From the NCBI GenBank assembly GCA_022712895.1, contig JAFLJS010000008.1:1-64000 (forward strand): DNA of 64,000 nt, read 5' to 3'. This DNA is from Desulfocapsa sp. (GTDB lineage: Bacteria > Desulfobacterota > Desulfobulbia > Desulfobulbales > Desulfocapsaceae). Below, piece after piece: positions 22,342-43,092 of the stretch (its first letter is position 1; the number at the start of each line of letters is the position of its first letter). The translations under genes and the position numbers were made by a program. The notes under the pieces are model-generated. The model saw only the letters and a program-made list of their open reading frames with translations, was not told the DNA's origin and searched no databases.

Positions 22342-23490
22342 CTAATATGCTTCCTCATCCAAAGCTTCTTCAACGGTTAGCTTTTTCGCATCCATCAATT
22401 TCCAGAGGTAGGCGATATAACCCACGACAAATGGAATTGCCAGCGCAACGTAGGTCATAATGGACAGTGTGTACTGACTGGAAGAGGCATTGTATATGGT
22501 AAGACTTGACTGTAGATCAAAAGTTGAAGGATAAAAAGCGGTTCCGTTAAATGCGGGCAGACAGAGTACCGTCAAGCCAACGAGTACAGTTCCGAACCCT
22601 GCAAACCAGATCCCCTTATCACTGTTTTTAAATGCGCCAGCAAGTACTCCCCAGATCACCAGCCCTATTCCACCAAGAAGCATAAGCAGGAGGTGAGGCA
22701 AAGCTATAAGATTAAAGAAATACTTAAAGGATACCATGGACACCACACCATCTGCGTCCACCCCAAACCCCTTGCGCAGAAGGATTGAGACAACAACAAA
22801 AAGGAGAAATGGCAGGGCACACAAGAAGTTTGTCCAGACAGCTTTTCGCAGACGTACTTCTAGTTCAGATACCGTACTGAAATCTATATTATTCAAAAGA
22901 TAGAGCGCCCCTAAGACCCTTGCATTGAAAACCAGAAACAGTCCGAGGGAAAGATTAAAGAGTGAAAAGGCAGCCTCAAGGCCTCGAAGGTTTACACCCC
23001 CAATAGTGTATTGCCAGGTCACTTGATTCATATCGTTCAAAGAGAAACTGGAACCAGTATAAAACGTTCCAACAGCTGCACCAATAAGCAACACACCGAC
23101 AGAACCATTTATAAACATAAACAATTCGTAGGTCTTGCCCCCCCAGACATTGGATGGCTTACTACGATACTCGTAACTTACTGCCTGGATAATAAAAGTG
23201 AAAAGAATCAATACCCATACCCAGTAAGCGCCACCAAAACTTGTAGCATAAAACTTAGGGAACGAGGCAAACAATGCGCCACCAAACAGAACCAGAGTGG
23301 TAAAAGTAAGCTCCCATTTCCGCCCCAGTGAGTTAACAATAAGTGCACTCTCCGTATCTGTTTTAGCCATCTGCCACAGCAAAGTCTGTCCACCCTGAAC
23401 AAAATTCAGGAAAAGGAACAGTGCACCAATCAGCGCACAGATAACCCACCAGAGTTGTTGCAGTGTTGCATAATCTAAATTTGATATCAT
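22342..23490 (-). CDS. cydB: Cytochrome bd ubiquinol/menaquinol oxidase subunit II
   Basis: 382 residues from ATG 23490 (GGAGG 9 nt upstream; the in-frame start at 23511 lies within cydA). Eight to nine TM helices with CydB features: WWVICALIGALFLFLNFVQGGQ near the N-terminus, TFTTLVLFGGALFASFPKFYA, and a C-terminal TYVALAIPFVVGYIAYLW. It partners CydA to reduce oxygen to water at the cytoplasmic membrane. In a sulfate reducer this is an oxygen-protection or microaerobic respiration enzyme. It starts one nucleotide after the cydA stop codon. Confidence 0.95.
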   Translation of the reverse strand: MISNLDYATLQQLWWVICALIGALFLFLNFVQGGQTLLWQMAKTDTESALIVNSLGRKWELTFTTLVLFGGALFASFPKFYATSFGGAYWVWVLILFTFIIQAVSYEYRSKPSNVWGGKTYELFMFINGSVGVLLIGAAVGTFYTGSSFSLNDMNQVTWQYTIGGVNLRGLEAAFSLFNLSLGLFLVFNARVLGALYLLNNIDFSTVSELEVRLRKAVWTNFLCALPFLLFVVVSILLRKGFGVDADGVVSMVSFKYFFNLIALPHLLLMLLGGIGLVIWGVLAGAFKNSDKGIWFAGFGTVLVGLTVLCLPAFNGTAFYPSTFDLQSSLTIYNASSSQYTLSIMTYVALAIPFVVGYIAYLWKLMDAKKLTVEEALDEEAY

Positions 23491-23491
23491 C

Positions 23492-25024
23492 TTAATGTCC
23501 CTCCGGTCCAATGGAAATCTGTTTCAGCATAATGGAAATCTCTGCGAACAACAGCATTGCAAAAACCACTGCAAACATTGCAAACGTAATTTGAACAGAT
23601 GTGGTGGAGAGATTTGTCGTAGCTATCTTTACAGGCATTAGCCCCTGGATTGCCCAGGGCTGGCGACCGACTTCTGCCGTTACCCAGCCCGCCTGTTGCG
23701 CCAGCAGCGCAAGAAGTGCGGTGAAGAGTCCAACGGGGAGTAACCAGCGTTTTTCTGTAATATTTCCTTTTACGGTAAAGAACAGAAAAGCACCAAAGAT
23801 AACAGGAAAAAGAGAACCTAAAATAGCCATTATATGAAAAGAATTAAAGACAATCGCCACAGGTGGAACGGCCTCTTCCGGTGTATCCAAATAGCCGTAA
23901 CCCATATATTTCTGATTCACGTTAAAACGTTCCAAGGCTGCGGCGGCGGCATCTTCCTGGCCAGCTCTTTTAGCCTCTTTAAATGCGGCGAGATCAGAAA
24001 GTGCATGACGCCCTTTTTCCATCATGGTGTTGACTCCCATGATATTCTCTTTTTCATTTCCCCAGACCAGATCGTCGATTCCAGGAACAAATGAACCAAA
24101 TTCACGATTGGCAAGCAGTGATAACATACCCGGAATTTTTACTTCGTAGAGAAATGCATCCTGAACATCACCAGGTGCTTTTGCATCATTAATAATTCCC
24201 ATACCAACAAGCCCTGCACCTCGCTCGCCTATGTATAGACCTTCCATGGCAGCAAGTTTCATGGGCTGCTTCTGAGCAACTTCATATGCTGCTTCATCAC
24301 CAGTGAATCCAACAAACATTGAGGCTACAAGGCCAAAAACAGAAGCCACAACTATTGATCTTTTGGCCATTTCCACATGTCGTCGCTTAATAAGGTACCA
24401 GCAGGAAATAGTCAAAACAAAGGCAGAGGCCATAACAAAACCGGATGAAGACGTGTGCGTCATCTTCGAAATGGCAACCGGATTAAAAACAACCTCGGCA
24501 AAACTCTCCATTTCAAACCTGGCCTGCTCAGGATTAAAAGCCATACCAACCGGATTTTGCATCCAGCCATTAGCAACAAGAATCCAGACAGCCGAAAGGT
24601 TGGAACCTATGGCCACCATCCACGTTGAGAAACAGTGAAATCTTTTGGAGACCTTGTCCCAGCCAAAAAACATCACTGCAAAGAAACTGGCTTCCATAAA
24701 AAAGGCAAAAAGTCCCTCAATGGCCAAAGGTGCTCCAAAAATATCACCCACCATCCAGGAGTAATTAGACCAGTTAGTACCAAACTCAAACTCAAGAATA
24801 ATGCCTGTAGCCACGCCAATGGCAAAGTTAATACCAAAGAGCGTCATCCAGAAACGGGTAATCGTTTTCCACTGTTCATCACCTGTTTTGAGATAAATGG
24901 TCTCAAAAAAGGCACAAAGAAATGACAGGCCAAGGGTTAAAGGTACAAATATCCAGTGATACATTGCCGTAAATGCAAACATTGCCCTCGACCAGTTCAC
25001 CAGACTGGGATCAACATCAATCAT
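23492..25024 (-). CDS. cydA: Cytochrome bd oxidase subunit I
   Basis: 510 residues. The heme-ligand regions are visible: MYHWIFVPLTLGLS near residue 23 (His, heme b595), SKMTHTSSSGF (His, heme b558) and FHIMAILGS (Met, heme b558). The quinol-site segment GWVTAEVGRQPW and the conserved GIILEFEFGTNW are present. The loop between helices 6 and 7 carries the quinol-oxidising Q-loop; its length is typical for a 500-residue CydA. The start has a strong AGGAGGAG site. It lies in the operon Rrf2-DUF4492-cydA-cydB-small peptide. Confidence 0.97.
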   Translation of the reverse strand: MIDVDPSLVNWSRAMFAFTAMYHWIFVPLTLGLSFLCAFFETIYLKTGDEQWKTITRFWMTLFGINFAIGVATGIILEFEFGTNWSNYSWMVGDIFGAPLAIEGLFAFFMEASFFAVMFFGWDKVSKRFHCFSTWMVAIGSNLSAVWILVANGWMQNPVGMAFNPEQARFEMESFAEVVFNPVAISKMTHTSSSGFVMASAFVLTISCWYLIKRRHVEMAKRSIVVASVFGLVASMFVGFTGDEAAYEVAQKQPMKLAAMEGLYIGERGAGLVGMGIINDAKAPGDVQDAFLYEVKIPGMLSLLANREFGSFVPGIDDLVWGNEKENIMGVNTMMEKGRHALSDLAAFKEAKRAGQEDAAAAALERFNVNQKYMGYGYLDTPEEAVPPVAIVFNSFHIMAILGSLFPVIFGAFLFFTVKGNITEKRWLLPVGLFTALLALLAQQAGWVTAEVGRQPWAIQGLMPVKIATTNLSTTSVQITFAMFAVVFAMLLFAEISIMLKQISIGPEGH

Positions 25025-25272: not shown

Positions 25273-25725
25273 TTACTCCTGGGAAGAACTGCTTATTGAC
25301 GCAGGAAACACGGGGATACACGACTCCTTTTCAGCAAGCTCAGCAAGACTTACTGCGCCCAGAGTCTCACGTAGCTGATTTCGTGCCTTATCCCAAACCC
25401 GATGCACACTACAACTCTTACTGAGAGTGCAACTTTGTGGGCGATCAATACAATCATTAAGAAATATTTCACCAATCATCACCTCCACAACCTGCAGCAA
25501 AGAGACATCTTCCGGTTGGGGAAGTAAATAATAGCCACCTTTTGGGCCCTGCCGGATAATGATAAGCTGTGCCTTTGCCAGTTCCTGGGCAATTTTTGCC
25601 AAGAAGTGACTTGGGATATCAGCACGTTCACAAATCTCCTGTTTGGAAATAAGAACACCCTGTCCTTTATGTGCCAGATAAACCATGCATCTGACTGCAT
25701 ATTCACCTGCCCTTGTCAGCCTCAT
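25273..25725 (-). CDS. Rrf2/IscR-family iron-sulfur regulator
   Basis: 150 residues. An N-terminal winged helix (RLTRAGEYAVRCMVYLA, IPSHFLAKIAQEL, GPKGGYYL) is followed by three cysteines, C92, C99 and C105, close to the C92/C98/C104 cluster ligands of IscR. This predicts a [2Fe-2S] or similar cluster. As first gene of the cytochrome bd operon it probably senses oxygen, nitric oxide or Fe-S status and controls the operon, including itself, through the palindrome at 25744-25770. DUF4492 begins 3 nt downstream of its stop. Confidence 0.9.
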   Translation of the reverse strand: MRLTRAGEYAVRCMVYLAHKGQGVLISKQEICERADIPSHFLAKIAQELAKAQLIIIRQGPKGGYYLLPQPEDVSLLQVVEVMIGEIFLNDCIDRPQSCTLSKSCSVHRVWDKARNQLRETLGAVSLAELAEKESCIPVFPASISSSSQE

Positions 25726-28870: not shown

Positions 28871-28958
28871 CACTGGTGTAATCTTGTTACTCGCAAAACA
28901 AGAAAACACCACGAGCGCACATTTTCAGCAGCAATACAAGTCGATACAAGATGTAACC

Positions 28959-29609
28959 ATGGTAGACGAAACTCGAAAGAATGCCCCAAAGTCTGATTTT
29001 CGGGAACGGCTGGGGAGTACCATCCTGGAGGTCTTCTCGGAAGCTGACTTCCACGCCGTGGGTATCAGGGATATTGCCCAAAAGGCCGGGGTCAGCTTTG
29101 CCACTATCTACAAATACTATGGCAGTAAGGAACAACTGGTATTTTCTTTTGTGGATCAGTGGATGGGTGTACTCACCGACCGAATTATCGACCACCTCCA
29201 CGGCATGGCCGACCTCAAAGAAAAACTCCGAAAAATATTCTGGCTGCAACTGGACTATTATGAACGCCACGAAGAATTTGCCAAAATAATCTTCCTCACC
29301 CTGCCCATGAAAACATGGATGAGTGATGAGAGTTTTGAGCAACACCGAATGTTTGATCTTCTTATGGATGTCCTGCGACAGGGACAGGAAGAGGGAATTT
29401 TAAATGACCAGATCGACACCCGTATTCTCTTGGACTTTATGATGGGTTTCGTGCAACGCAGTTTTATGATGTGGATACAGAGAGGAAAAAAAGAACCACT
29501 CTCCAGCCAGACAGATATCATGTTTGATATGATCTGGCAGGGTATTCAACCTCCGCATTCCACAGATAAACAACAGGCAGATAGCAGAGCCATAGAACAA
29601 TTAAGCTGA
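28959..29609 (+). CDS. TetR/AcrR-family transcriptional regulator
   Basis: 216 residues from ATG 28959. The DNA-binding helix-turn-helix is at about 15-60: ILEVFSEADFHAVGIRDIA, AGVSFATIYKYYGSKEQL. The ligand-binding half is helical with FAKIIFLTLPMKTW. It is the first gene before the propionate/methylmalonyl-CoA block, on the same strand, 58 nt ahead of prpE. A role in regulating that block in response to an acyl-CoA or acid is plausible but inferred. The open frame extends upstream to 28716, but that part looks non-coding and contains the promoter. Confidence 0.88.
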   Translation: MVDETRKNAPKSDFRERLGSTILEVFSEADFHAVGIRDIAQKAGVSFATIYKYYGSKEQLVFSFVDQWMGVLTDRIIDHLHGMADLKEKLRKIFWLQLDYYERHEEFAKIIFLTLPMKTWMSDESFEQHRMFDLLMDVLRQGQEEGILNDQIDTRILLDFMMGFVQRSFMMWIQRGKKEPLSSQTDIMFDMIWQGIQPPHSTDKQQADSRAIEQLS

Positions 29610-29667: not shown

Positions 29668-31563
29668 ATGGTACAATTTAATTCGTTATTTCAGCAGTCA
29701 ATTGAAAAACCTGAGGAATTCTGGGCAGAAGCTGCAGAAGGTATAGACTGGATACAAAAGTGGGATACTGTCCTGGACAGTTCGCGGCCTCCTTTTTACC
29801 GCTGGTTTTCCGGTGCCACAATGAACACCTGTTACAATGCCCTGGATCGTCATGTCTTGGCTGGCCGTGGTGAACAGACTGCCATCATTTATGATTCCCC
29901 GGTAACAGATACCATTCGGAAAATATCATACAAAGAGTTACAGGATGAAGTTGCTCTCTTTGCCGGCGGCCTAAAATCGCAAGGAGTTGAGAAGGGTGAC
30001 ACCGTTATTATCTATATGCCCATGATCCCCGAAGCAGCCGTTGCCATGCTCGCCTGTGCGCGTCTTGGCGCCATACATTCTGTCGTCTTTGGAGGTTTTG
30101 CCGCAAGCGAGCTTGCCATTCGCATTGATCATGCCCGACCCAAAGTGATCGTCACAGCCTCAGGCGCTGTTGAAGGGAAAAAAATCATTGCCTACAAACC
30201 TCTGGTGGACAAAGCCATTGCACAATCTGACCATCAGGTTGAAAAATGTATCCTCTTTCAACGGGATGTTATTTCTGCAGAGATGCTAGAAGGCAGAGAC
30301 ATTGACTGGCTGGAGCTTGTCAAAACGAGTGAGCCCGCAGAGTGCGTGGAAGTGGCTGCCACCGATCCACTTTACATCCTCTACACATCCGGCACTACCG
30401 GAATGCCTAAAGGCGTCATGCGAGATAATGGCGGGCACGCCGTGGCGGTTCACTGGTCCATGAAAAACATATATGACATTGATGCTGGTGATGTTTTCTG
30501 GTCCGCATCTGATGTTGGCTGGGTGGTTGGACATTCCTACATTATTTACGGCCCCTTACTCAAAGGTGCAACCACCATCATTTATGAAGGAAAACCCATC
30601 GGCACTCCCGACGCCGGAGCCTTCTGGCGTGTAATTTCAGAGCACAAAGTAAAGACCCTGTTCACAGCACCCACTGCCTTTCGAGCCATCAAAAAGATGG
30701 ATCCTGAGGGCAATCTTCTTGAGCAGTATGACATGTCCTCCTTTGAAGCGCTGTATCTTGCCGGTGAACGACTGGACACAGACACTTACTACTGGGCCGA
30801 CAAGCTGCTCAGCGTTCCAATTATCGATCACTGGTGGCAGACGGAAACCGGTTGGGCCATTGTCGCAAACTGCCGTGGCATCGAAGCGCTTGAAGTGAAA
30901 GCAGGTTCTCCGTCACTGCCCGTTCCCGGTTATGATGTCCGGGTGGTGAATAATGAGGGTAAGGAACTACCGGCAGGAGAAGAGGGTAACATTGTTATCA
31001 AGCTTCCTCTTCCTCCCGGCACCCTTGCTACCTTATGGCACAACGAAGACCGCTTCCTATCTTCGTATATGGCCACCTTCCCTGGCTATTACGAGACAAG
31101 TGATGGTGGCTATATTGATAAAGATGGTTACGTATTTGTCATGGGACGCATGGATGATGTCATCAATATTGCCGGACACCGCCTGTCAACTGGTGCCATG
31201 GAAGAAGTCATTTCAACACACCCCGACGTTGCGGAGTGTGCTGTTATCGGCACCAATGACCAACTTAAAGGACAGCTTCCCCTTGGACTTTTTGTCTTAA
31301 AAGAGGGCGTTGAACGTGATCCCGAGGATATCAAGGCGGATCTTGTAAAGATGGTTCGGGAAGAGATTGGCCCTATTGCCTGTCTGCGTGAGACATCGGG
31401 TGTAAGCCGTTTGCCTAAAACACGTTCCGGTAAAATTTTACGGGGCACCATGCGCTCAATTGCCAACGGCAAAGAATACCGAATGCCTTCCACCATTGAC
31501 GATCCAAACAGCCTTGAAGAAATAACAGACACTCTAAAGAATATGGGATACCCCAAACAATGA
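29668..31563 (+). CDS. prpE: Propionyl-CoA synthetase (PrpE-type acyl-CoA ligase)
   Basis: 631 residues, the usual length for PrpE. Activates propionate to propionyl-CoA with ATP (cytosol). The N-terminus PEEFWAEAAEGIDW, the nucleotide loop TSGTTGMPKGV, the substrate-pocket region WWQTETGWAI and the C-terminal KTRSGKILRG with the acetylatable catalytic Lys all fit the acetyl/propionyl-CoA synthetase family. The propionate assignment rests on PrpE-like features (FYRWFSGATMNTCYNALDRH) and on the methylmalonyl-CoA genes that follow. GAGGG lies before the ATG. Its stop overlaps the sucC start (ATGA). Confidence 0.9.
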   Translation: MVQFNSLFQQSIEKPEEFWAEAAEGIDWIQKWDTVLDSSRPPFYRWFSGATMNTCYNALDRHVLAGRGEQTAIIYDSPVTDTIRKISYKELQDEVALFAGGLKSQGVEKGDTVIIYMPMIPEAAVAMLACARLGAIHSVVFGGFAASELAIRIDHARPKVIVTASGAVEGKKIIAYKPLVDKAIAQSDHQVEKCILFQRDVISAEMLEGRDIDWLELVKTSEPAECVEVAATDPLYILYTSGTTGMPKGVMRDNGGHAVAVHWSMKNIYDIDAGDVFWSASDVGWVVGHSYIIYGPLLKGATTIIYEGKPIGTPDAGAFWRVISEHKVKTLFTAPTAFRAIKKMDPEGNLLEQYDMSSFEALYLAGERLDTDTYYWADKLLSVPIIDHWWQTETGWAIVANCRGIEALEVKAGSPSLPVPGYDVRVVNNEGKELPAGEEGNIVIKLPLPPGTLATLWHNEDRFLSSYMATFPGYYETSDGGYIDKDGYVFVMGRMDDVINIAGHRLSTGAMEEVISTHPDVAECAVIGTNDQLKGQLPLGLFVLKEGVERDPEDIKADLVKMVREEIGPIACLRETSGVSRLPKTRSGKILRGTMRSIANGKEYRMPSTIDDPNSLEEITDTLKNMGYPKQ

Positions 31564-32711
31564 AAATCCACGAGTACCAGGCCAAAGAGCTCTTCCGTCG
31601 TGCCGGAATCTCCGTCCCCGACGGCAAAACCTGTTCAGAGCAGTCAGAAATCCCTGCCATCATTACCGGGATGAAAATGCCGGTGGCTGTTAAGGCACAA
31701 ATTCTGGCAGGAGGACGAGGCAAGGGTGGAGGTGTGCTTCTTGCTAAATCTGAAGAAGAGGCGGTTGCTGCGGCACAAAAGATCCTTGGCATGCAACTAG
31801 TCACCAAACAGACCGGGGAAAGTGGTACTGAAGTGAAAACCATTCTCCTTGAGCAGGGAGTCAATATTGCAAGGGAGTTATACCTTTCCCTCCTGATTGA
31901 CAGAGATCGTGGCGGGATCGTAATCATTGCCAGTCAGGACGGAGGCATGGATATTGAAACCGTTGCCGCAGAGACTCCTGAACGTATTATTAAGGTGCAT
32001 ATCAACCCGCTCCTTGGCCTGCAAGGTTATCAGATTCGGGAATTGATCTTTGGACTTGCGCTCACAGGAGCTGTGGCCAAAGATTTTGCAGCTACTCTAA
32101 AAAAACTCTACACCCTCTTTGTCAGCTACGATGGCTCGTTGGTCGAAATCAACCCACTGGTCATCACCAGAGAAGAGACTGTCATGGCGCTGGATGCCAA
32201 AATGGATATTGATTCCAACAGCCTCTTTCGTCATCCTGATATTCTGGAAATGCACGATAACAGAGAAGAAGACCCGTTAGAAGTTGCCGCTGCGGCCCAT
32301 GGACTCAACTATATTCGCTTGAACGGCACCATTGGCAGTATGGTGAACGGGGCGGGACTCGCCATGGCTACCATGGATCTTATCAAACAGGCGGGTGTGG
32401 AGCCAGCCAACTTCCTCGATGTCGGAGGTGGAGCCAATGCCGAAATGGTGGAAAACGGATTTCGTATTATCCTGGATGACCCCAATGTACGTGGCATTTT
32501 CATCAATATTTTTGGAGGAATCTTGCGTTGCGATATTCTGGCCGAAGGAGTGGTTGCCGCAGCAAAAAAAGTACGTCTTACCCTGCCCGTTATAGTGCGC
32601 ATGGAAGGCACCAATGTTGATGAGGGCCGCAAGATCCTGGCTGAATCGGATATCACCCTGACCAGCGCACGGGATTTAAAGCATGCAGCAGAACTTCTTG
32701 CTGCAATCTAA
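31560..32711 (+). CDS. sucC: Succinyl-CoA ligase beta subunit
   Basis: 383 residues. An N-terminal ATP-grasp region (MKIHEYQAKELFRRAGISVP, KAQILAGGRGKGGG) and a C-terminal CoA-ligase domain (NFLDVGGGA, NIFGGILRCDILAEGV). With SucD it interconverts succinyl-CoA and succinate coupled to ADP/ATP. In propionate oxidation via methylmalonyl-CoA this is the substrate-level phosphorylation step. It overlaps prpE by 4 nt. Unusually, it is separated from sucD by a complete gene for a secreted GlpQ-like protein. Confidence 0.96.
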   Translation: MKIHEYQAKELFRRAGISVPDGKTCSEQSEIPAIITGMKMPVAVKAQILAGGRGKGGGVLLAKSEEEAVAAAQKILGMQLVTKQTGESGTEVKTILLEQGVNIARELYLSLLIDRDRGGIVIIASQDGGMDIETVAAETPERIIKVHINPLLGLQGYQIRELIFGLALTGAVAKDFAATLKKLYTLFVSYDGSLVEINPLVITREETVMALDAKMDIDSNSLFRHPDILEMHDNREEDPLEVAAAAHGLNYIRLNGTIGSMVNGAGLAMATMDLIKQAGVEPANFLDVGGGANAEMVENGFRIILDDPNVRGIFINIFGGILRCDILAEGVVAAAKKVRLTLPVIVRMEGTNVDEGRKILAESDITLTSARDLKHAAELLAAI

Positions 32712-32726
32712 GCGATCACAAATATC

Positions 32727-33839
32727 ATGCGAAATTTTATCTCATCTTTACTCTTTGGCCTTTTGATCATTTCCCCCTGGCACTGTTCAGCAAAACTGGT
32801 CATTGCCGACGGAGGAGCTTCCGGATATCTAATAAAAAACAATCTGGCCGCCACCAGTCTGGCTGTGAGCATGGGGGCCGACATTATCAAGCTGGACGTT
32901 ACACTCAACAAGGACAATGAAGTGGTGGTCTTCTCTTCACCTTATCTGGAATATGCATCCAATGTGGCTGAAGTCTTTCCCAAACGCATTCGAGAGGATC
33001 AACACTACTACCTATTCGATTTCACCATGGAGGAACTGAGACAGCTTAACCTCCTAGACCCTGCAAATCGATTGCCAGCTTCTCCACGATTTACTATCAG
33101 TACCCTTGAGGAACAACTCTCCCTTATCCAGAGCCTTGAAACAAGTCTCAACCGTTCAGTCCGCATTGCAATAACACTTGTAAAACCATGGATACACAAA
33201 AAAGAACAACGTGACCTCACCGGCCCTGTTCTCTCCACCCTTCTGCAATATGGCCACACTGGTCAAGCTGACAAGATACTGCTCCTCAGTTATGATGTGG
33301 AAGAACTACAGCGTATTGCCAAACAGTTGTTACCTGCCTTTCAAATGCAGATCAAACTGGTACAGCTCATTGACCAGCCAGACGGTCAGGAATATATGGT
33401 GGAAGAGTGGGGAGAGTACAAGAGTTACAATTATGACCTGCTTTTCAGCAACAGCGGCCTACGAGCACTTGCAGGATCTGTTGCAGCCATAGCGCTTCCC
33501 AAAGATATGCTGGTGGATTCAGAGGGGCAGCTTAAACATACAAACTTTGTAAACAATGCCCAAAAGCTGGAAACTTTGATCTTCACCTTCCCCGTCCAAA
33601 AAGACACTGAAACACGATTGACATTTGGTGGAAGTTTTGAGGAAGAGTTAGAATTTCTTTACTTTACTGTAGGTGTTGATGGCATTTTCACCGATTATTG
33701 TGATGATGTCAGTCGTTTTCTAAGCAACAGAGTACAGACACAACAAAGCGACGACGATAATGCAACTCTCTTTCCACCCACGACACCGGCAGTAACTGCC
33801 CCAGAGAACCTCACAAGTCCACTAGACATGGAGAATTAA
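32727..33839 (+). CDS. Secreted GlpQ-like protein lacking catalytic residues
   Basis: 370 residues with a signal peptide (FISSLLFGLLIISPWHCSA). The fold of periplasmic glycerophosphodiester phosphodiesterases is recognisable: VIADGGASGYL, SMGADIIKLDVTLNKDNEVVVFSSPYLEYASNV abridged here in order, ISTLEEQLSLI and GVDGIFTDY near the end. The catalytic His-Arg (AHRGASG in active enzymes) is Asp-Gly, the first Glu of the ExD pair is Leu, and the second catalytic His (LHDPYL) is replaced in FSSPYL. It is therefore probably a pseudoenzyme or binding protein. It sits between sucC and sucD; the sucD ribosome-binding site GGAG lies in its last codons. Confidence 0.8.
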   Translation: MRNFISSLLFGLLIISPWHCSAKLVIADGGASGYLIKNNLAATSLAVSMGADIIKLDVTLNKDNEVVVFSSPYLEYASNVAEVFPKRIREDQHYYLFDFTMEELRQLNLLDPANRLPASPRFTISTLEEQLSLIQSLETSLNRSVRIAITLVKPWIHKKEQRDLTGPVLSTLLQYGHTGQADKILLLSYDVEELQRIAKQLLPAFQMQIKLVQLIDQPDGQEYMVEEWGEYKSYNYDLLFSNSGLRALAGSVAAIALPKDMLVDSEGQLKHTNFVNNAQKLETLIFTFPVQKDTETRLTFGGSFEEELEFLYFTVGVDGIFTDYCDDVSRFLSNRVQTQQSDDDNATLFPPTTPAVTAPENLTSPLDMEN

Positions 33840-33842
33840 CAG

Positions 33843-34715
33843 ATGTCCATATTTATAGATAAGAACACAAAGGTCCTGGTACAGGGGATTACAGGTAAAG
33901 AAGGCCGCTTTCACACACAGCAGTGCAAAGCGTACGGAACGAACATAGTTGGCGGCGTAACTCCCGGAAAAGGCGGCCAGGATGTTGACACTATCCCTGT
34001 TTTTAACAGCGTGGCCGATGCCTGTCGTAAAACAGGTGCCGATGCCACCATGATCGTCGTCCCTCCGCCCTTTGCTGCCGAGGCGATACTTGAAGCAGTT
34101 GATGCTGGGATTGCTCTTATCATCTGCATCACAGAAGGCATTCCGGTTATGGATATGCTCCGCGTAAAAAATGGAATGGCTGGCAAAAAAAGCCGGCTGA
34201 TCGGCCCTAACTGCCCGGGAATCATCACTCCCGGAGAGTGTAAAATCGGCATTATGCCAGGCCCCATCCACACCGCTGGCGGCCCAGTGGGTGTAGTTTC
34301 AAGATCAGGCACACTCACCTATGAAGTCGTGCATCAGTTGACAGAACAGGGCCTTGGCCAAACTACCTGTTTAGGTATTGGCGGAGACCCTATAAATGGC
34401 ACAAACTTTATCGACTGCCTTGAGGCCTTTGCAAACGACCCTGAAACAGAGGCTGTGGTCATGGTCGGTGAAATTGGTGGCAGTGCAGAAGAAGAAGCAG
34501 CTGCCTGGATAGCTGCCAATATGAAAAAGCCGGTGGTTGGATTTATTGCTGGGCTCACCGCTCCTCCTGGCAGAACCATGGGACATGCTGGTGCTATTGT
34601 GAGTAATGGACAGGGAACTGCTGAAGCAAAACTTGCTGCCATGCGTGAGAATGGAATTGTTGTTTGTGAGTCCCTTGGTGAATTGGGAGAGATCTGTAAA
34701 TCTACTTTTTGCTAA
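33843..34715 (+). CDS. sucD: Succinyl-CoA ligase alpha subunit
   Basis: 290 residues. CoA-binding N-terminus ([15 protein letters not shown]), [11 protein letters not shown], and the catalytic phospho-His loop [11 protein letters not shown] (about residue 246). It completes the ligase with SucC. Translation probably depends on that of the upstream GlpQ-like gene, because GGAG is embedded in the last codons of that gene, 9 nt before the ATG. A truncated mobile element (34720-34775) begins 5 nt after the stop. Confidence 0.96.
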
Positions 34716-34810: not shown

Positions 34811-35209
34811 ATGAGCATCCCATACAGAGTATTAATTGGAAAACCCGGCCTCGACGGCCACGATCGCGGTGCAAAATTTATCGCCCGCGCCCTACGTGAC
34901 GAAGGCTTTGAAGTGATCTACACAGGTATTCGTCGAACTGCTGCTGAGATTGCAGCCACTGCCATTCAGGAAGATGTCGATGTAGTAGGATTATCTTCCT
35001 TGTCTGGAGCGCATCTTCGACTTTTCCCGGAAGTTATCAAGGAGCTGAAAGACAGAGGTGGAGCAGATATTCCAGTGCTTGGCGGTGGCGTTATTCCAGA
35101 CGAAGATAAAGAGCAACTCCTTGCTGCCGGACTGCGTGCCATCTTTACCCCCGGTACCCCTGCGGCAACAATAATTCAATCTTTCAGTGATGCCTGTAAA
35201 CAACAGTAA
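34811..35209 (+). CDS. mcmA2: Methylmalonyl-CoA mutase cobalamin-binding subunit
   Basis: 132 residues forming a stand-alone B12-binding Rossmann domain. The base-off/His-on motif DxHxxG is present as GLDGHDRG, followed by GLSSLSGAH and VLGGGVIPDED. It pairs with the large catalytic subunit encoded at 36433-38076 to give a split adenosylcobalamin-dependent methylmalonyl-CoA mutase. Its 3' end overlaps the meaB start by 20 nt. Confidence 0.94.
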   Translation: MSIPYRVLIGKPGLDGHDRGAKFIARALRDEGFEVIYTGIRRTAAEIAATAIQEDVDVVGLSSLSGAHLRLFPEVIKELKDRGGADIPVLGGGVIPDEDKEQLLAAGLRAIFTPGTPAATIIQSFSDACKQQ

Positions 35210-36134
35210 CTCATTACTGAAAGGTCTGGCAGCTAGAGACCCCCGTGCCATCGGCAAGGCTATCTCCATTGTGGAGAATAATGGTCAAGGTGTCACAGAA
35301 ATCCTTGCCGGTCTTGACCGTAAATGTATTGAGGAAGTTCTGGTACTGGGCATCACCGGACCTCCCGGAGCTGGCAAATCAACGCTTACCTCCAGCATGA
35401 TCAGTCAGCTTCGATCCGATGGCAAACGAGTTGGAATAATTGCTATTGACCCGTCATCCCCCATCAGCGGCGGAGCCATATTGGGAGATCGAGTGCGCAT
35501 GATGGAACACGCACTGGATACAGATGTGGTTGTCCGCTCCATGGCGACCCGAGGCAGACTTGGCGGACTCTGCGCCTCAGCAGGAGCCACCGTTCGTATT
35601 ATGGCGGCCTCAGGATGTGAAGTAATTATCATCGAAACCGTGGGTGTGGGACAATCGGAAATGGACATTGTACGCCTGGCTGATATTACCCTTATGGTTC
35701 TGGCACCCGGATTTGGCGACGATATCCAGGCAATGAAAGCAGGGCTTCTTGAAGTGGCTGATTTTCTCGTGGTCAACAAATCGGACCTGGGAGGCGCTGA
35801 AGCCCTTGTCATGGATATGAAACAGATCTTTGCGACAAAAGAAAAAGAGAGTGACATTGCCCGCGTCCTGCAAAGCATCGCTTCTGAAAATACCGGGATC
35901 AAAGAACTTCTGGACGCAGTGCAACGCTTCACAACATATCTTACGATAAACAATTTAAAAAAACAGCGCCGTAAAAAGGCCATGGAAGGTGAAACACTGG
36001 ACTGGGTCTTTGAGATGCTGCGCCCCACATTGACCCGAAAGCTGGTAGAACAAACCGGACAGGAACAAATAGATCCTCGAGTTCGGGCAAAAGAGCTCAT
36101 TCAACAAATGCTACCCATTAACTATCACCGGTGA
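35190..36134 (+). CDS. meaB: MeaB/ArgK-type GTPase chaperone of methylmalonyl-CoA mutase
   Basis: 314 residues from ATG 35190 (a GTG lies one codon earlier). G-protein features: P-loop GPPGAGKST (about 55), switch regions IDPSSPISGGAILGDR and ETVGVGQSE, and the base-specificity loop VNKSDL. MeaB loads and protects the B12 cofactor of methylmalonyl-CoA mutase. It lies between the genes for the two mutase subunits, which fits that role. Downstream is the duplicated intergenic module at 36116-36432. Confidence 0.95.
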   Translation: MPVNNSNSLLKGLAARDPRAIGKAISIVENNGQGVTEILAGLDRKCIEEVLVLGITGPPGAGKSTLTSSMISQLRSDGKRVGIIAIDPSSPISGGAILGDRVRMMEHALDTDVVVRSMATRGRLGGLCASAGATVRIMAASGCEVIIIETVGVGQSEMDIVRLADITLMVLAPGFGDDIQAMKAGLLEVADFLVVNKSDLGGAEALVMDMKQIFATKEKESDIARVLQSIASENTGIKELLDAVQRFTTYLTINNLKKQRRKKAMEGETLDWVFEMLRPTLTRKLVEQTGQEQIDPRVRAKELIQQMLPINYHR

Positions 36135-36432: not shown

Positions 36433-38076
36433 ATGAATAATAACAGCAAATTCAACGATTGGCAGGAAAACGAACTGGCTGCGAGCCTGAACCGTTTCCC
36501 CGAGCGTAAAGAAGAGTTCAAGCTCCACGGTGATGCAGAAGTACAGCGTCTGGCAATGCCCAAAGTAATCGACGAGCAATACGAAAAAAGTCTTGGTTTC
36601 CCCGGCAAATACCCCTTCACCCGTGGTGTCCAGCCCACAATGTATCGTGGCAGATTCTGGACCATGCGCCAGTACGCCGGTTTTTCCAGCGCTGCGGAAT
36701 CAAACAAACGTTACCGTTATCTTCTCGAACAGGGAACCACTGGTTTGTCAGTGGCCTTTGACCTGCCAACCCAAATTGGCTACGATTCTGATGATGCCAT
36801 GTCCCTTGGTGAGGTTGGCAAAGTTGGTGTAGCCATTGATACTTTAGCGGATATGGAAGCTCTCTTTGCTGACATTCCACTGGCCGATATCTCCACCTCC
36901 ATGACCATCAATTCCCCGGCCATTGTACTGCTCGCCATGTATATCGTGGTGGCAGAAAAACAGGGAGTACCTGCTGAAAAACTCCGCGGCACGATCCAGA
37001 ACGATGTTTTGAAAGAGTATGTGGCAAGGGGAACGTATATTTTCCCTCCACGTCCGTCCCTTGGGATCATCACCGATATTTTTCAGTGGTGCAGTTCCAA
37101 CATGCCTCTTTTCAACACCATTTCCATCTCCGGCTATCATATTCGTGAGGCTGGATCGACTGCTGCTCAAGAAGTAGCCTTTACACTGGCAAACGGTATT
37201 ACTTACGTGCAGACTGCCCTGGATGCAGGGTTGGAAATTGATCATTTTGCCAAACGCCTGGCCTTCTTTTTCAATGCATCCTCAAATCTCCTGGAAGAAG
37301 TAGCCAAATTCAGAGCTGCCAGAAGGCTCTGGGCACGGATTATGAAAAACAGATTTGAAGCACAGCATCCGGCTTCCATGATGATGCGTTTTCATACCCA
37401 GACTGCGGGCAACACCCTGGCTGCGCAACAGATTGATAACAACATTGTCCGTGTCACCCTCCAGGCACTGGCGGCTGTCCTTGGCGGCACCCAAAGCCTG
37501 CATACCAACTCCCGTGATGAAGCATTGTCCCTGCCAACAGAAGCCTCGGTACGCACAGCACTGAGAACGCAGCAGATCATTGCCCATGAATCCGGGGTGG
37601 CTGAAACAGTTGACCCTTTTGCCGGTTCCTATTACATGGAACAGCTCACGGATGACATTGAACTTGCAGCAGAAGAGCTGATTGCAAAAATTGATGATTC
37701 CGGTGGAGTTGTTTCCTGTATTGAGAACGGTTTTATAAAGAGCCAGATTGAGCAGGCCGCTTACGATTACCAAAAAGACATCGAATCGGGTGAACGGGTC
37801 ATTGTTGGTGTGAATGCCTTTCAAATAGAGGGAGAGGAAAAACCTGAACTGCTGCGAGTGAACCCCGAAGTTGAAGAGGCACAGGTTGCACACCTTCAGA
37901 GTGTGCGAGCACAAAGAGATCAAGAAGAAGTTAATCGTAGCCTTAGCGCTCTCAAGCAGGCTGCGGAATCGGGAGACAACCTTATGAATCCGATCATGGA
38001 TGCGGTTCGTGCCTACGGGAGTCTTGGAGAAATATGCACTGTTCTTCGCTCTGTTTTTGGCGAGTATCGAGATTAG
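36433..38076 (+). CDS. mcmA1: Methylmalonyl-CoA mutase large (catalytic) subunit
   Basis: 547 residues, the usual length for the catalytic subunit of a split mutase. The TIM-barrel substrate domain shows [20 protein letters not shown] near the N-terminus, then [17 protein letters not shown] and [19 protein letters not shown]. There is no B12 domain; that part is the separate 132-residue protein at 34811. Together they isomerise (R)-methylmalonyl-CoA and succinyl-CoA. Translation probably uses the GGAG/AAGG of the duplicated leader just upstream. Confidence 0.96.
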
Positions 38077-38151: not shown

Positions 38152-38556
38152 ATGCTGAAAAAAATAGACCATTTAGGAATCGCAGTACATTCCATAGAAA
38201 AAGCACGTAAATTCTATGAAAACGTGCTGGGACTCAACTGTGAAAAGGAAGAGGAAGTCACCTCACAAAAAGTTCGCACCGCATTTTTTGTACTTGGCGA
38301 AACCCATATAGAACTTCTCGAACCGACATCCGACGACAGCCCCATAGCCATTTTCCTTGCAAAACGCGGCGAAGGATTGCATCATGTTGCTTATCGTACA
38401 ACTGATATCGAAAAGCAATTGCAGGCAGCCAAGGATCAAGGTTGTACTCTTATCCATGAAACACCTATCACTGGAGCCGGCAACAAGCAGGTGGCCTTTC
38501 TTCATCCAAAATCCAGTCATGGGCTACTCACCGAATTTTGTAGCGAGGCACAATAA
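38152..38556 (+). CDS. mce: Methylmalonyl-CoA epimerase
   Basis: 134 residues, vicinal-oxygen-chelate fold. It interconverts (R)- and (S)-methylmalonyl-CoA, linking mutase and carboxyltransferase. Expected metal-ligand contexts are visible: [13 protein letters not shown] at the start, ETHIELLEP and [10 protein letters not shown] in the middle, and the late Glu in LTEFCSE. It overlaps the carboxyltransferase start by one base (TAATG), so the two are co-translated. Confidence 0.95.
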
Positions 38557-40100
38557 TGAGTGATGCACTGAAACGACTCTTTCAACTCCGTTCCGAGGCA
38601 CGACTTGGCGGCGGTGAAGCACGCATTGAGAAACTCCATGCTCAGGGGCGGATGACAGCAAGGGAACGTATTGACTCCCTCCTTGATCCAGGTTCCTTTG
38701 AAGAATTTGATATGTTCAAGACCCATCGCTGCCATGATTTTGGTATGGAAAAGAAAATCTTCCCTGGAGATGGCGTGGTGACGGGCTATGGAACCATCGA
38801 CGGCCGACTTGTGTATGTCTATGCACAAGATCCCACTGTCCTTGGCGGTTCTCTTTCTGAAACCATTGCCGAAAAAATCTGCAAGGTGATGGATCTGGCC
38901 GTGAAAAACGGAGCACCGATTATCGGCCTCAACGATTCGGGGGGGGCTCGTATTCAGGAAGGTATTGAATCTCTTGCCGGATATTCTGATATCTTCCTGC
39001 GTAACGTCATGGCTTCCGGTGTTATCCCCCAGATTTCAGCAATATTTGGTCCCTGTGCTGGTGGCGCTGTGTATTCTCCCGCTCTTACTGACTTTGTGGC
39101 CATGGTCAAAAACAATTCATACATGTTCCTTACCGGACCCAAAGTAGTCAAATCAGTCACCCACGAAGATGTTACAGTTGAAGAACTGGGTGGAGCTGTT
39201 ATGCATTCATCCCGTAGTGGTGTCTGTGATTACGCGGCCGATTCCGGAGCGGATTGTGTAAGATATGTGAAAAAACTGCTCTCCTTTCTGCCACAAAACA
39301 ATGTGGAAACCCCACCACGAATTGCCACTCAAGATACCCCGGACAGACGTGCCGAGGAACTCAACGACATCATTCCCGAAAATGCTGCTGAACCATATGA
39401 TATGAAGGATGTTCTTCTGGCAAGCATTGACGACCGGGATTTCTTCGAGATAAAACAGAACTTTGCCCCCAACCTTATTGTCGGTTTTGCACGTTATGAT
39501 GGCCGTTCAGTTGGAATCGTTGCCAATCAACCCATGCATCTTTCCGGTGTACTGGATATTGACTCATCGATAAAAGGAGCTCGTTTTGTCCGTTTCTGTG
39601 ATTGTTTTAACATTCCAGTTGTAACCTTTGTTGATGTTCCCGGATTTCTGCCAGGTACCGCCCAGGAATATGGTGGGGTTATCCGCAACGGTGCCAAAAT
39701 GCTTTACGCATACGCCGAGGCGACTGTTCCCAAAATCACCGTCATTACCCGTAAAGCCTATGGTGGTGCCTACTGCGTTATGTCTTCCAAACACCTGCGA
39801 GGGGATATCAACTACGCCTGGCCAGAAGCAGAAATTGCTGTAATGGGTGCCAAGGGAGCCGTTGGCGTATTATACGGTCGGGAAGCGCTAACCCAGGAAG
39901 ATCCTGCTGCCTTTCTTGCTGAAAAAGAAATCGCCTATCAGGAGAAGGTTGCCAATCCTTATGTTGCTGCTCAACGTGGCTATGTTGATGACATTATCGA
40001 GCCTGCCAGAACCCGTTTTCGCATTGTAAAAGCTCTCGGTATGTTGCAGAACAAAAATGATAGCAATCCAATGAAGAAACACGGCAATATCCCCCTATAA
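38556..40100 (+). CDS. mmdA: Methylmalonyl-CoA carboxyltransferase / decarboxylase alpha subunit
   Basis: 514 residues with two crotonase-like carboxyltransferase halves. The N-terminal half has [11 protein letters not shown] and [15 protein letters not shown]; the C-terminal half has [18 protein letters not shown] and [15 protein letters not shown]. This family serves propionyl-CoA carboxylase beta, methylmalonyl-CoA decarboxylase alpha and transcarboxylase 12S. The adjacent OadG-like, biotin-carrier and OadB-like genes favour the Na+-linked decarboxylase or a transcarboxylase hybrid. No biotin carboxylase gene is in the window. Confidence 0.94.
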
Positions 40101-40110
40101 CGAGCGACCC

Positions 40111-40491
40111 ATGTCTTTTACAAATATTGGTATCCATAATCTGCTACGGCCTGAATTCAATGCCTTCCAATTTTCCCTGATGGGAATGGGGCTGGTTTTT
40201 GGCGGGCTATTGATCATTGCCCTCTATATCGTTTTGCTTCCTAAACTGCTTGCCCTTGCCGAAAGAAAGCCAAAAATGCAGGATGCTATATGCACTGATG
40301 AAAAGTGTAAACAGGAAGAAGAGGAAATCCTCCTGGCCATTGCCACCGCCCTGCATCTGCACAGCAACTTCCCTGAAGGTGAAGATCGCATCACCTGGAA
40401 GAGTCATGGCGATATGGAATCTCCATGGCTGGTCTCCGGCCGCATGCGATCACTTAAAAGCCGACAACAAGTTAATCCCTGGAACACCTAA
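40111..40491 (+). CDS. OadG-type gamma/delta subunit of a Na+-pumping decarboxylase
   Basis: 126 residues. One N-terminal TM helix (FSLMGMGLVFGGLLIIALYIVL) followed by a charged cytoplasmic part, and a C-terminal segment SPWLVSGRMRSLKSRQQVNPW like the tail of OadG/MmdD proteins that holds the complex together. The tail is unusually long for a pure assembly subunit and contains two cysteines (AICTDEKCKQ). Its TAA stop overlaps the ATG of the biotin carrier gene. Confidence 0.85.
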   Translation: MSFTNIGIHNLLRPEFNAFQFSLMGMGLVFGGLLIIALYIVLLPKLLALAERKPKMQDAICTDEKCKQEEEEILLAIATALHLHSNFPEGEDRITWKSHGDMESPWLVSGRMRSLKSRQQVNPWNT

Positions 40492-40916
40492 TGAAAGAAT
40501 ATAAACTGACAATAAACAGTAATAAATACAATGTTATCATCAAGGATGTCACTGATGATGCGGTACTGGCTGAAGTCAACGGAAAACAATATGTTGTTGA
40601 CCGGGAAACCGTGGTAAACAATGCACCGCCAGCAAGAACTCAACCCGAGGCCCTGCTTCCAGCAACATCTGCGCCACAACCTGCAAACCCTGTAAAAGCA
40701 GGAGCTGGAACCATCCCCACCCCCATTCCCGGACAGATCATCAGTATCAATGTGACAGTCGGTGAAAAGGTGCGTTCTGGACAAAAGCTCCTTGTTCTTG
40801 AGGCCATGAAACTCGAAAACAGCATCACGGCCACCATCGATGGAACAGTCGAAGAGATTCTGGTGACAGAAGGTGACGTGGTTGCCCAGGGTCAGACCCT
40901 GGTTATCATTAACTAG
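40491..40916 (+). CDS. mmdC: Biotin carboxyl carrier protein
   Basis: 141 residues. A short N-terminal domain (about 1-42), an Ala/Pro-rich hinge (about 44-75, containing NNAPPARTQPEALLPATSAP), and a biotinyl domain with the target Lys in EAMKLEN (about residue 106). The usual EAMKM is EAMKL. It carries the carboxyl group between the carboxyltransferase and the membrane beta subunit or a partner carboxylase. Its last codons coincide with the start of duplicated leader B. Confidence 0.93.
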   Translation: MKEYKLTINSNKYNVIIKDVTDDAVLAEVNGKQYVVDRETVVNNAPPARTQPEALLPATSAPQPANPVKAGAGTIPTPIPGQIISINVTVGEKVRSGQKLLVLEAMKLENSITATIDGTVEEILVTEGDVVAQGQTLVIIN

Positions 40917-41046: not shown

Positions 41047-42174
41047 GTGAATCTGCTCAGTTTTTATAATAACTCCGGTTTTGCCCATCTGGAATGGACA
41101 AACCTATTCATGATCACAGTGGGTATAGTCTTTATCTATCTTGCCATCACCAAAGATTACGAACCCCTGCTGCTGGTACCAATTGGTTTTGGTGTTATTG
41201 TCGGCAACATCCCACCCATCGAGGGCATGCCGCTTTCTGTCTATGCGGAAAATTCTGTTTTCTACTATCTCTATCTAGGCGTTATGAAAGGCATCTATCC
41301 GCCCCTGATTTTCTTAGGTATTGGAGCCATGACTGATTTTTCCACCATGCTCTCCAACCCGAAGCTGATTCTTCTTGGTGCTGCCGCCCAGATTGGTGTC
41401 TTTTTGACGTTTATTGGATCGCTGTATCTGGGATTCTCACCGGAACAAGCTGGAGCAATTGGCATTATTGGTGGCGCAGATGGCCCCACAGCCATATTCC
41501 TGTCCTCAATGCTGGCCCCTGAGCTGCTTGGCCCCATAGCCATTGCTGCCTATTCGTATATGGCGCTGGTGCCCGTCATTCAGCCACCTATTATGTATCT
41601 CTTTACCACCAAAAAAGAGCGCCGGATTCACATGAAACCGCCACGAATTGTTTCTAAAAAAGAGAAAATTATATTCCCAATCGTGGCCTTTTTAATCTGT
41701 GCACTGATTGCACCCGGTTCCATGACCCTGCTGGGCATGCTCTTTTTTGGCAACCTGTTAAAGGAATCCATGGTTACAGAACGACTTGCCAATACCGCCA
41801 GAAATGGACTTATTGATATTGTTACCATCCTCCTTGGCTTTTCAGTGGGTGCATCCACTCAGGCCCAGACCTTTTTAACAACACAATCCATCCTGATCTT
41901 TGTGTTGGGCGCAGCTTCTTTTGTTGTGGCTACCAGTGGTGGCGTTCTTTTTGCCAAGTTTATGAACCTCTTCTTAAAAGATAAAATCAATCCGCTTCTT
42001 GGTGCTGCCGGGGTTTCTGCTGTTCCTGATTCTGCCCGTGTTGTCCATCAAATTGGTTTGAAAGAAGATCCGACCAATTTCCTGCTGATGCATGCCATGG
42101 CTCCCAATGTGGCTGGTGTTATCGGTTCTGCCATTGCTGCTGGTGTACTCTGGTCAGCGCTAGGCAAATTTTAA
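41047..42174 (+). CDS. mmdB: Na+-transporting decarboxylase beta subunit (OadB/MmdB-like)
   Basis: 375 residues, about nine or more TM helices. Family hallmarks: LIFLGIGAMTDFS, GGADGPTAIFLSS and GAAGVSAVPDSARV, the segments that bind carboxybiotin and Na+ in oxaloacetate/methylmalonyl-CoA decarboxylases. It decarboxylates carboxybiotin and exports Na+, or runs in reverse to carboxylate using the Na+ gradient. The GTG start has AAGGAG 5 nt upstream. It follows leader module B instead of being fused directly to the biotin carrier gene. Confidence 0.94.
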   Translation: MNLLSFYNNSGFAHLEWTNLFMITVGIVFIYLAITKDYEPLLLVPIGFGVIVGNIPPIEGMPLSVYAENSVFYYLYLGVMKGIYPPLIFLGIGAMTDFSTMLSNPKLILLGAAAQIGVFLTFIGSLYLGFSPEQAGAIGIIGGADGPTAIFLSSMLAPELLGPIAIAAYSYMALVPVIQPPIMYLFTTKKERRIHMKPPRIVSKKEKIIFPIVAFLICALIAPGSMTLLGMLFFGNLLKESMVTERLANTARNGLIDIVTILLGFSVGASTQAQTFLTTQSILIFVLGAASFVVATSGGVLFAKFMNLFLKDKINPLLGAAGVSAVPDSARVVHQIGLKEDPTNFLLMHAMAPNVAGVIGSAIAAGVLWSALGKF

Positions 42175-42231: not shown

Positions 42232-43092
42232 ATGACTATTCCTTCACTTAAACTTGGCGAATTTCACATCTACTGGCTCAACGGCGGTCACTTTCGTCTC
42301 GATGGCGGAACCATGTTTGGCGCTGTTCCCAAGGTACTCTGGGAAAAAAAGTGTATAGCCGACAAAAAGAACACCATCCCCATGTGTAATGATGTGCTTC
42401 TTGTCAAAACACCTGACCACAACATCCTCATTGATACCGGTATTGGCAATAAGCTAAGTGACAAACTGCTCTCCATCTTTCAGGTAACAAAAGAATGGTC
42501 ACTGATCACTGAGCTTGCTGAAGTAGGGCTAACCCGCGCAGATATCGATCTGGTACTGCTGACCCATTGTGACTTTGATCATGCGGGTGGAATTGTTATG
42601 CAGAGCCAGAACAAAGAGGAGTTAAGCTTCCCCAATGCTGTGCATTACATACAGCAGAAAGAGTGGGAAGATGTGGAACGGCCTAACAGACGTGCACAAT
42701 CCACTTACTGGCCTGAGAATTTTTCCCTGCTAAAAAAGAAAGGAAAACTACAGATTATTTCAGGAGACAGGGAGGTCATAAGCGGCATAAAACTCATCCA
42801 TACCGGAGGACACACCCGTGGACACCAGATGGTGGAACTGTGTTCCAATGGAGAGACAGCCGTTCACTTAGGGGACCTTTACCCCACCCATGCCCATACA
42901 AATCCACTCTGGATCATGGCCTATGATAATTTCCCTCTGGAAGTTATTGATCGCAAGGAAGAATATTTTAACTATTACCAAAAGCTGGATAGCTGGTTCA
43001 CGTTTTATCATGATCATACTGTGAAGGCATGTAAGTTGGATGAACAGGGACTGGTTAATTTTAGCAACAATGATTCCCTCATAGCACCGTAA
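42232..43092 (+). CDS. MBL-fold metallo-hydrolase, lactonase-like
   Basis: 286 residues. The metal motif is THCDFDHAGG (HxDxDH, seen in part of the MBL superfamily), with HTGGHTRGHQ, HLGDLYPTHAH and the late FYHDHTV supplying other ligands. Overall pattern (DNILIDTGIGNK, LTHCDFDHAGG) is of small-molecule hydrolases such as lactonases. It lies 57 nt after the beta-subunit gene on the same strand, possibly the last gene of the propionate block, but no pathway role can be assigned. Its last 18 codons resemble a plus-strand stretch near 46376-46435. Confidence 0.82.
   Translation: MTIPSLKLGEFHIYWLNGGHFRLDGGTMFGAVPKVLWEKKCIADKKNTIPMCNDVLLVKTPDHNILIDTGIGNKLSDKLLSIFQVTKEWSLITELAEVGLTRADIDLVLLTHCDFDHAGGIVMQSQNKEELSFPNAVHYIQQKEWEDVERPNRRAQSTYWPENFSLLKKKGKLQIISGDREVISGIKLIHTGGHTRGHQMVELCSNGETAVHLGDLYPTHAHTNPLWIMAYDNFPLEVIDRKEEYFNYYQKLDSWFTFYHDHTVKACKLDEQGLVNFSNNDSLIAP

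Follow-up and report, generated by a model that had tools for sequence, protein, structure and literature searches.

A gene lying between the genes for two subunits of one enzyme is usually taken to be functionally linked to that enzyme. Does this hold for the ORF that separates sucC from sucD in a Desulfocapsa sp. genome (GenBank assembly GCA_022712895.1, contig JAFLJS010000008.1)? The window, i.e. the whole stretch of DNA analysed, comprises the first 64,000 nucleotides of this contig. The ORF (32727..33839, forward strand) runs through 370 codons without an internal stop. Its product, hereafter X, is a pseudoenzyme by its residues, probably exported, and has a GlpQ fold as indicated by a Pfam GDPD match, phmmer, an AF2 model and a VIA comparison. 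Genera and families are designated by g and f codes, genomes by G, and loci or the sequence rows taken from them by L; g1 is the genus of the window and f1 its family, Desulfocapsaceae.

The ORF between sucC and sucD

The flanking genes, both on the forward strand, were identified as sucC (succinyl-CoA ligase beta subunit, 31560..32711; NCBIfam NF001913, 531.3 bits, cut-off 370) and sucD (alpha subunit, 33843..34715; NF004230, 463.3 bits, cut-off 336), each exceeding its equivalog cut-off. The first-pass annotation had described a GlpQ-fold ORF between these two genes, with the sucD ribosome-binding site inside its final codons, and both statements hold. The start codon of X (ATG) follows the sucC stop at a distance of 15 nt, and the sucD ATG follows the X stop at 3 nt; GGAG at 33830..33833 (+), within the last codons of X, is the likely ribosome-binding site of sucD. 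No good ribosome-binding site of X's own is apparent to inspection. A promoter-like match (10-of-12) inside X, at 33268-33296, is a candidate that could serve sucD; the promoter scan returned 17 matches against 10.9 expected, and the terminator scan 7 against 9.1. A sequencing or frame artefact as the source of X is ruled out, the ORF being intact in relatives.

The first gene of the operon encodes a prpE/acs-like acyl-CoA ligase (29668..31563, +) and is preceded by a TetR-type regulator gene (about 28953-29609). The top NCBIfam match of the ligase is propionate--CoA ligase, with 777 bits, below the cut-off of 955; it clears the cut-off of an acetate--CoA ligase subfamily (679.7 against 657). 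Downstream of sucD and on the same strand, Pfam matches reveal a B12-binding mutase subunit (34811-35209), meaB (35187-36134) and the methylmalonyl-CoA mutase large subunit (36433-38076). Pfam and the ORF list add a glyoxalase-fold, epimerase-like gene (38152-38556), a carboxyltransferase (38556-40100), a biotin carrier (40491-40916), an OadB-type Na+ pump beta subunit (41047-42174) and, as the last gene of the operon, an MBL-fold gene (42232-43092). We take this gene set to be that of the methylmalonyl-CoA propionate pathway. Elsewhere in the window (22342-25024 and 25273-25725), judging from the sequence, an apparent cytochrome bd oxidase pair lies beside an Rrf2-type regulator gene.

Fold, active site and C-terminal tail of X

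X matches the Pfam GDPD family (PF03009) with 70.7 bits (E-value = 2.6e-19), above the gathering cut-off of 23.6, and its nearest solved structures in a phmmer search are those of Escherichia coli GlpQ (1t8q, E-value = 5e-51; 1ydy, 5.9e-51). The AF2 model (pLDDT 88.1, pTM 0.84) is predicted to be a GDPD-type TIM barrel, superposing on 1t8q with a VIA Z score of 42.4 and an rmsd of 1.6 over 311 residues; phmmer, AF2 and VIA assign the barrel to residues 23-334 (32793..33728, +). Structure prediction thus bears out the GlpQ fold proposed from the sequence alone. A distant g11 member, 28% identical, is also modelled with the GlpQ fold (pLDDT 86.8, Z 34.9, rmsd 2.7 over 311 residues). The export of X had been proposed as well, and is likely, as judged by eye: residues 1-22 (32727..32792, +), ending HCSA before K23, look like a signal peptide, and the printed relatives have hydrophobic N-termini. 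Inspection by eye revealed no lipobox at a conserved place.

In Bacillus subtilis GlpQ, the active site comprises His43, Arg44, Glu70, Asp72, His85, Glu152 and Gln188 (PMC7086022). The equivalent positions of X hold D28, G29, K55, D57, S70, T150 and L187. Of this active set, made up of the His-Arg pair, the two acids of ExD, a second His, the Glu that is the third metal ligand, and the Gln, six residues are replaced and D57 alone is kept. The earlier claim that the catalytic residues are gone thus stands for six of seven positions, while its statement that the paired acid residue is Leu was wrong: L56 fills the spacer position within ExD, the Glu has become K55 and the Asp is D57. By its residues, X fits a pseudoenzyme, an enzyme fold without the catalytic set. 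It scores 237 bits against the GlpQ equivalog PRK11143, below the cut-off of 254. L061, which appears equally inactive by its residues, clears the same model with 282.7 bits.

An active site re-invented on the same barrel, by which X would still be an enzyme, is quite improbable. D57 is kept, many relatives, though not the window's X, still have the Glu and Lys of PEIK, and acidic residues have become fixed in g1, among them E306/E307 and E227. However, no replacement set of His, Cys, Lys or Asp was seen fixed across the inactive relatives (the pseudo clade, below), and the sites once occupied by the His, the Arg and the metal ligands differ even between members of one genus. Nor was a new set fixed in g1 seen elsewhere in the fold, a case that the first-pass annotation had raised.

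The barrel is followed by a low-complexity linker and a C-terminal peptide (residues 335-370; 33729..33836, +), delimited from the sequence and its relatives. From residue 343 on, the pLDDT of the model is mostly below 50. While the linker is variable, the short peptide is conserved within lineages and differs between them: the window's X carries ENLTSP and several congeners DPLQLTSP, the g1 form (LxLxxP); g14 and g15 have LPxFFxxLxLxRP, g11, g3 and g8 an IERLIE-like peptide (IExLIE), and g2 a DPExLLERLRRxQ-like one. The pattern L.[LI]..P, chosen after viewing the tails and counted over related rows, occurs in 13 of 18 g1 tails (shuffle expectation 1.20), 7 of 8 g14 tails (0.71; the match in L058 is not the main peptide) and 1 of 14 g5 tails (1.12), with 1/6 in g15, 0/3 in g13 and 0/4 in g11; it is absent from the window's own X. 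LP.FF was found in 12 of the 14 g14/g15 tails. When a profile of nine of these g14/g15 tails was searched against 11 g14/g15 genomes, the best place was X each time (E-value of 0.002 or better), all others having E-values >0.02. Within these 11 genomes, nine of which gave profile rows, a general C-terminal sorting signal is rejected, X being the sole place with E <0.02. The dN/dS of the tail exceeds that of the whole protein, at 0.21-0.86 in eight pseudo-clade pairs, the ninth being undefined. In L020 (G019) a stop codon precedes the C-terminal peptide, whose codons are readable downstream before sucD, through either a real truncation or an assembly error.

Distribution, phylogeny and selection

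A profile built from seven congeners was searched in 257 genomes of the order. Strong full-length matches were confined to f1 and one genome of family f12 (G132), the others outside f1 being short and weak. When 395 genomes spread over the phylum were searched with an active-type g5 protein, five had a match at 1e-30, of which four belong to f1 and the fifth is distant. A contig scan with the X protein alone yielded 21 stretches, none of them confirmed, and a plasmid search 37 records, all below 60% identity; among the ten listed, six were annotated glpQ and four were unannotated. The places of X, sucC and sucD were paired by eye, with a threshold of 1e-70 for the latter two. The counts leave out the G012 fragment L030, other GDPD-type matches (L002, L003, L031, L032), repeats (L086, which repeats G009; L021, L022, L026-L028, L033-L045, L097-L100) and fragments in G168 and G179; L092 and L101, ordinary GlpQ-type rows, served as outgroup only, and L073 is partial.

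The order sucC-X-sucD lies on one contig in 27 of the 93 f1 genomes, sucC or sucD being cut by the contig end in a few: 17 of 20 in g1, two in g9, four in g11 and one each in g6, g3, g8 and g12. Three more genomes (G012, G017, G178) fit it across contig ends, so that it is found in seven genera on single contigs and in an eighth across contig ends, which exceeds chance recurrence. An insertion unique to this genome, named by the first-pass annotation as a possible refutation, is ruled out. Methylmalonyl-CoA genes follow in the g1 and g9 loci.

In 22 genomes (g15, g13, g2, g14, g7) X adjoins mfd instead, with a HAD gene between them in 21 of the 22. The four of these genomes that were examined (G172, G164, G020, G031; g14, g2, g13) have an intact, X-free prpE-sucC-sucD-mmdA elsewhere. 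At L061 (6305-15001) and like loci the order is bamA-mfd-HAD (GMP/IMP nucleotidase-like)-X, a DNA-repair helicase gene amid envelope genes, and a glycine-zipper lipoprotein gene follows X in 12 of 14 g14/g15 loci. In six loci of g14, g35, g4 and g2 (L125-L128, L130, L132) the mutase genes in the vicinity of sucCD are oriented against prpE-sucC-sucD-mmdA; they are only about 50% identical to those of the window, so that two or more arrangements of the propionate cluster exist within the family. In g5, X is present in 15 genomes, of which G023 alone has both sucC and sucD at 1e-70. An MBL-fold gene lies directly downstream of X in 14 of these 15, and in the fifteenth both are near contig ends.

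X can be dispensed with. In g1 itself, G015 has sucC-sucD with a gap of 244 nt and no X, and the seven-congener profile found no full-length match in g35, g4, g10 or g36; sucCD is kept in X-free relatives such as G015, G140, G141 and G022. When the three forward frames of the gap between sucC and sucD were inspected by eye in G015, G024, G140 and G034, no trace of X was seen.

In a tree of X (70 rows, rooted on two solved GlpQs), the 51 rows that lack the catalytic set group together in a single clade (UFB 98/SH-aLRT 97), the pseudo clade, whose sister is g5 plus L065. Long branches (L029, L068, L073 and others) are placed unsurely, and fast-evolving inactive copies could attract each other. 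The full seven-residue set is present in none of the 51 rows; of the residues H, R, E, D and H, 14 rows retain none, 31 one, five two and one three. In the sister group 14 of 15 rows keep all seven residues checked (H, R, E, D, H, E, K), and in g5 alone the active site is intact in 13 of 14. The g5 copy L090 (4061-5437) has three of seven residues changed (SREEREK) and four kept; it appears to be decaying, a natural intermediate from enzyme to pseudoenzyme. L065 (G132, f12), an active GlpQ of the g5 type accompanied by an MBL fragment, represents a transfer or a misbinned contig.

X is under constraint, as a rule less than sucC and sucD. Nine pseudo-clade pairs gave dN/dS values of 0.103-0.314, with a highest upper 95% bound of 0.416, three of the pairs having dS >1, near saturation; three g5 pairs gave 0.113-0.182. 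Over the BLAST-aligned parts of eight g1 pairs, several of them saturated in dS, the values were 0.076-0.296 for X, 0.042-0.170 for sucC and 0.027-0.101 for sucD. With dN/dS well below 1, neutral decay is ruled out, and the suggestion that the frame is maintained is confirmed by purifying selection between relatives.

Several X-free genomes show what looks like an empty site: mfd-HAD-prpE-sucC-sucD-mmdA in g35 (G140, G141), with an MBL gene at the far end, and mfd-HAD-prpE-sucC-sucD in G024. The order is mfd-HAD-prpE-sucC-X-sucD-mmdA in g11 and mfd-HAD-X-mmdA in two of three g13 loci, and in G009 (Desulfocapsa sulfexigens-like) HAD-mfd lies about 19 kb upstream of sucC-X-sucD on the same strand. 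The MBL gene is found 7-12 kb downstream of sucCD, on the same strand, in 9 of 12 non-f1 genomes (f4, f12) in which the two could be paired on one contig, and 10-15 kb downstream in eight f1 genomes without sucC-X-sucD. This link is not universal: G111 and G112 extend more than 30 kb past sucD without an MBL gene, and some genomes with sucCD have no MBL gene at 1e-50. Given the linkage of the MBL gene with sucCD in other genomes, the X-MBL pair of g5 looks like a scar of lost propionate genes. From these gene orders we infer that the mfd-HAD-prpE-sucC-sucD-mmdA region acquired a GlpQ gene early in Desulfocapsaceae. This gene would have come in at the sucC-sucD junction or directly behind HAD, and would later have swapped or shifted from one of these neighbouring sites to the other. 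In the g5 lineage the propionate genes would have disappeared and the enzyme next to the MBL gene stayed active; in the other lineages catalysis would have been lost.

A first insertion between sucC and sucD, with a later position beside HAD in some lineages, fits the data: by our own parsimony count it needs two changes on the X tree against three for the reverse, and g1 and g9, both with X between sucC and sucD, are the earliest branches within the pseudo clade. The branches ordering the two sites have moderate support (89/74, 92/80). The reverse course fits them too, and has a lesser but real chance of being correct. X would then have stood first after mfd-HAD, upstream of prpE-sucC-sucD, and moved between sucC and sucD later, at least once. 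The rows with X between sucC and sucD are indeed split rather than one clade; starting from mfd-HAD-X-prpE-...-oadB-MBL, a single contiguous deletion would account for X-mmdA (g13) as well as for X-MBL (g5), and the X-free prpE-sucC-sucD-mmdA of G172, G164, G020 and G031 would simply have moved away. We dropped the sucC-sucD junction as the certain first site when X-free prpE-sucC-sucD operons were found elsewhere in g14, g2 and g13. Under either course X has been kept without adjacent sucCD.

Possible roles and known relatives

The first-pass annotation had suggested a possible tie to propionate or succinate metabolism, which the data do not support. That X serves this metabolism, perhaps sensing or handling dicarboxylates in the periplasm as a protein that needs to be made together with SucCD, is unlikely. 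The 27 genomes with sucC-X-sucD and the three fitting it across contig ends, the methylmalonyl-CoA genes that follow in g1 and g9, and the adjacency of the mfd site itself to an ancestral-looking prpE-sucC-sucD site speak for it. However, X lies beside mfd in 22 genomes, the four examined among them having prpE-sucC-sucD elsewhere, both sucC and sucD occur in one of the 15 g5 genomes bearing X, and X-free genomes keep sucCD. That X persists in genomes with sucC and sucD at another place, or without them, speaks against a function bound to succinyl-CoA metabolism, and suggests that X probably has its own job. We also consider it improbable that X is the leftover of a dead enzyme, kept in frame for the sucD ribosome-binding site and translational coupling. 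X does evolve faster than sucC and sucD, the junctions are tight and several lineages lack X, but dN/dS is 0.10-0.31 across the protein, the predicted fold is intact at 28% identity, and X is retained at the mfd site with no sucD after it.

The likeliest reading, to which we give an even chance, is that X is a GlpQ-derived pseudoenzyme acting as a non-catalytic binding or docking protein outside the cytoplasm. X would be exported and fold on its own, the C-terminal peptide might hold it to an envelope partner, and the rebuilt mouth of the barrel might bind, but not cleave, a ligand or protein. Lying between sucC and sucD would give X co-expression, with re-initiation after sucC likely; the position would otherwise be a historical accident rather than a hint that X acts on SucCD. 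More tentatively, a periplasmic GlpQ may have turned into an envelope docking protein, with catalysis lost once and lineage-specific peptides fixing a co-evolving partner, giving a new non-catalytic family beside or inside the operon of a two-subunit cytoplasmic enzyme unrelated to it in work.

These observations imply that passenger and partner are separable, relatives keeping X where the sucCD operon is elsewhere or gone. An active sister genus (g5), a decaying copy (L090) and some 50 inactive copies form a natural series from enzyme to non-enzyme, along which the change can be followed and tested. A database cut-off that names some apparently inactive members GlpQ, as with L061, makes for misleading annotations. 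Among the papers listed by our literature search none was seen on X, and none was returned on GlpQ pseudoenzymes, on inactive periplasmic glycerophosphodiester phosphodiesterases, or on sucC/sucD in Desulfobulbaceae.

Judged by its residues, X is a GDPD-fold pseudoenzyme. The barrel of B. subtilis GlpQ with glycerol-3-phosphate (5t9b, 5t9c) resembles the X model (Z 29.3 and 30.1, respectively), but X has neither of the two His residues, nor the Arg or the Gln, and only one of the three Ca2+ ligands of the active site defined for it (PMC7086022). Periplasmic E. coli GlpQ (1t8q/1ydy; PRK11143) shares with X the predicted fold (rmsd 1.6 over 311 residues), a similar length and, as judged by eye for X, likely export; X differs in the six replaced active-site residues, the additional C-terminal linker and peptide, and the lack of a glp locus. 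NTHi Protein D (8cwp), a surface lipoprotein of GlpQ type, is also close to the model (Z 41.4, rmsd 1.6 over 307 residues), but retains the HREDHEK set. The active-type GlpQs of g5 (e.g. L062), 38-43% identical to X, sister to the pseudo clade and likely exported, differ from it in their active site (13 of 14 rows), in their position before an MBL-fold gene, and in a long, Pro-rich tail (120 aa in L021) from which the peptide is absent.
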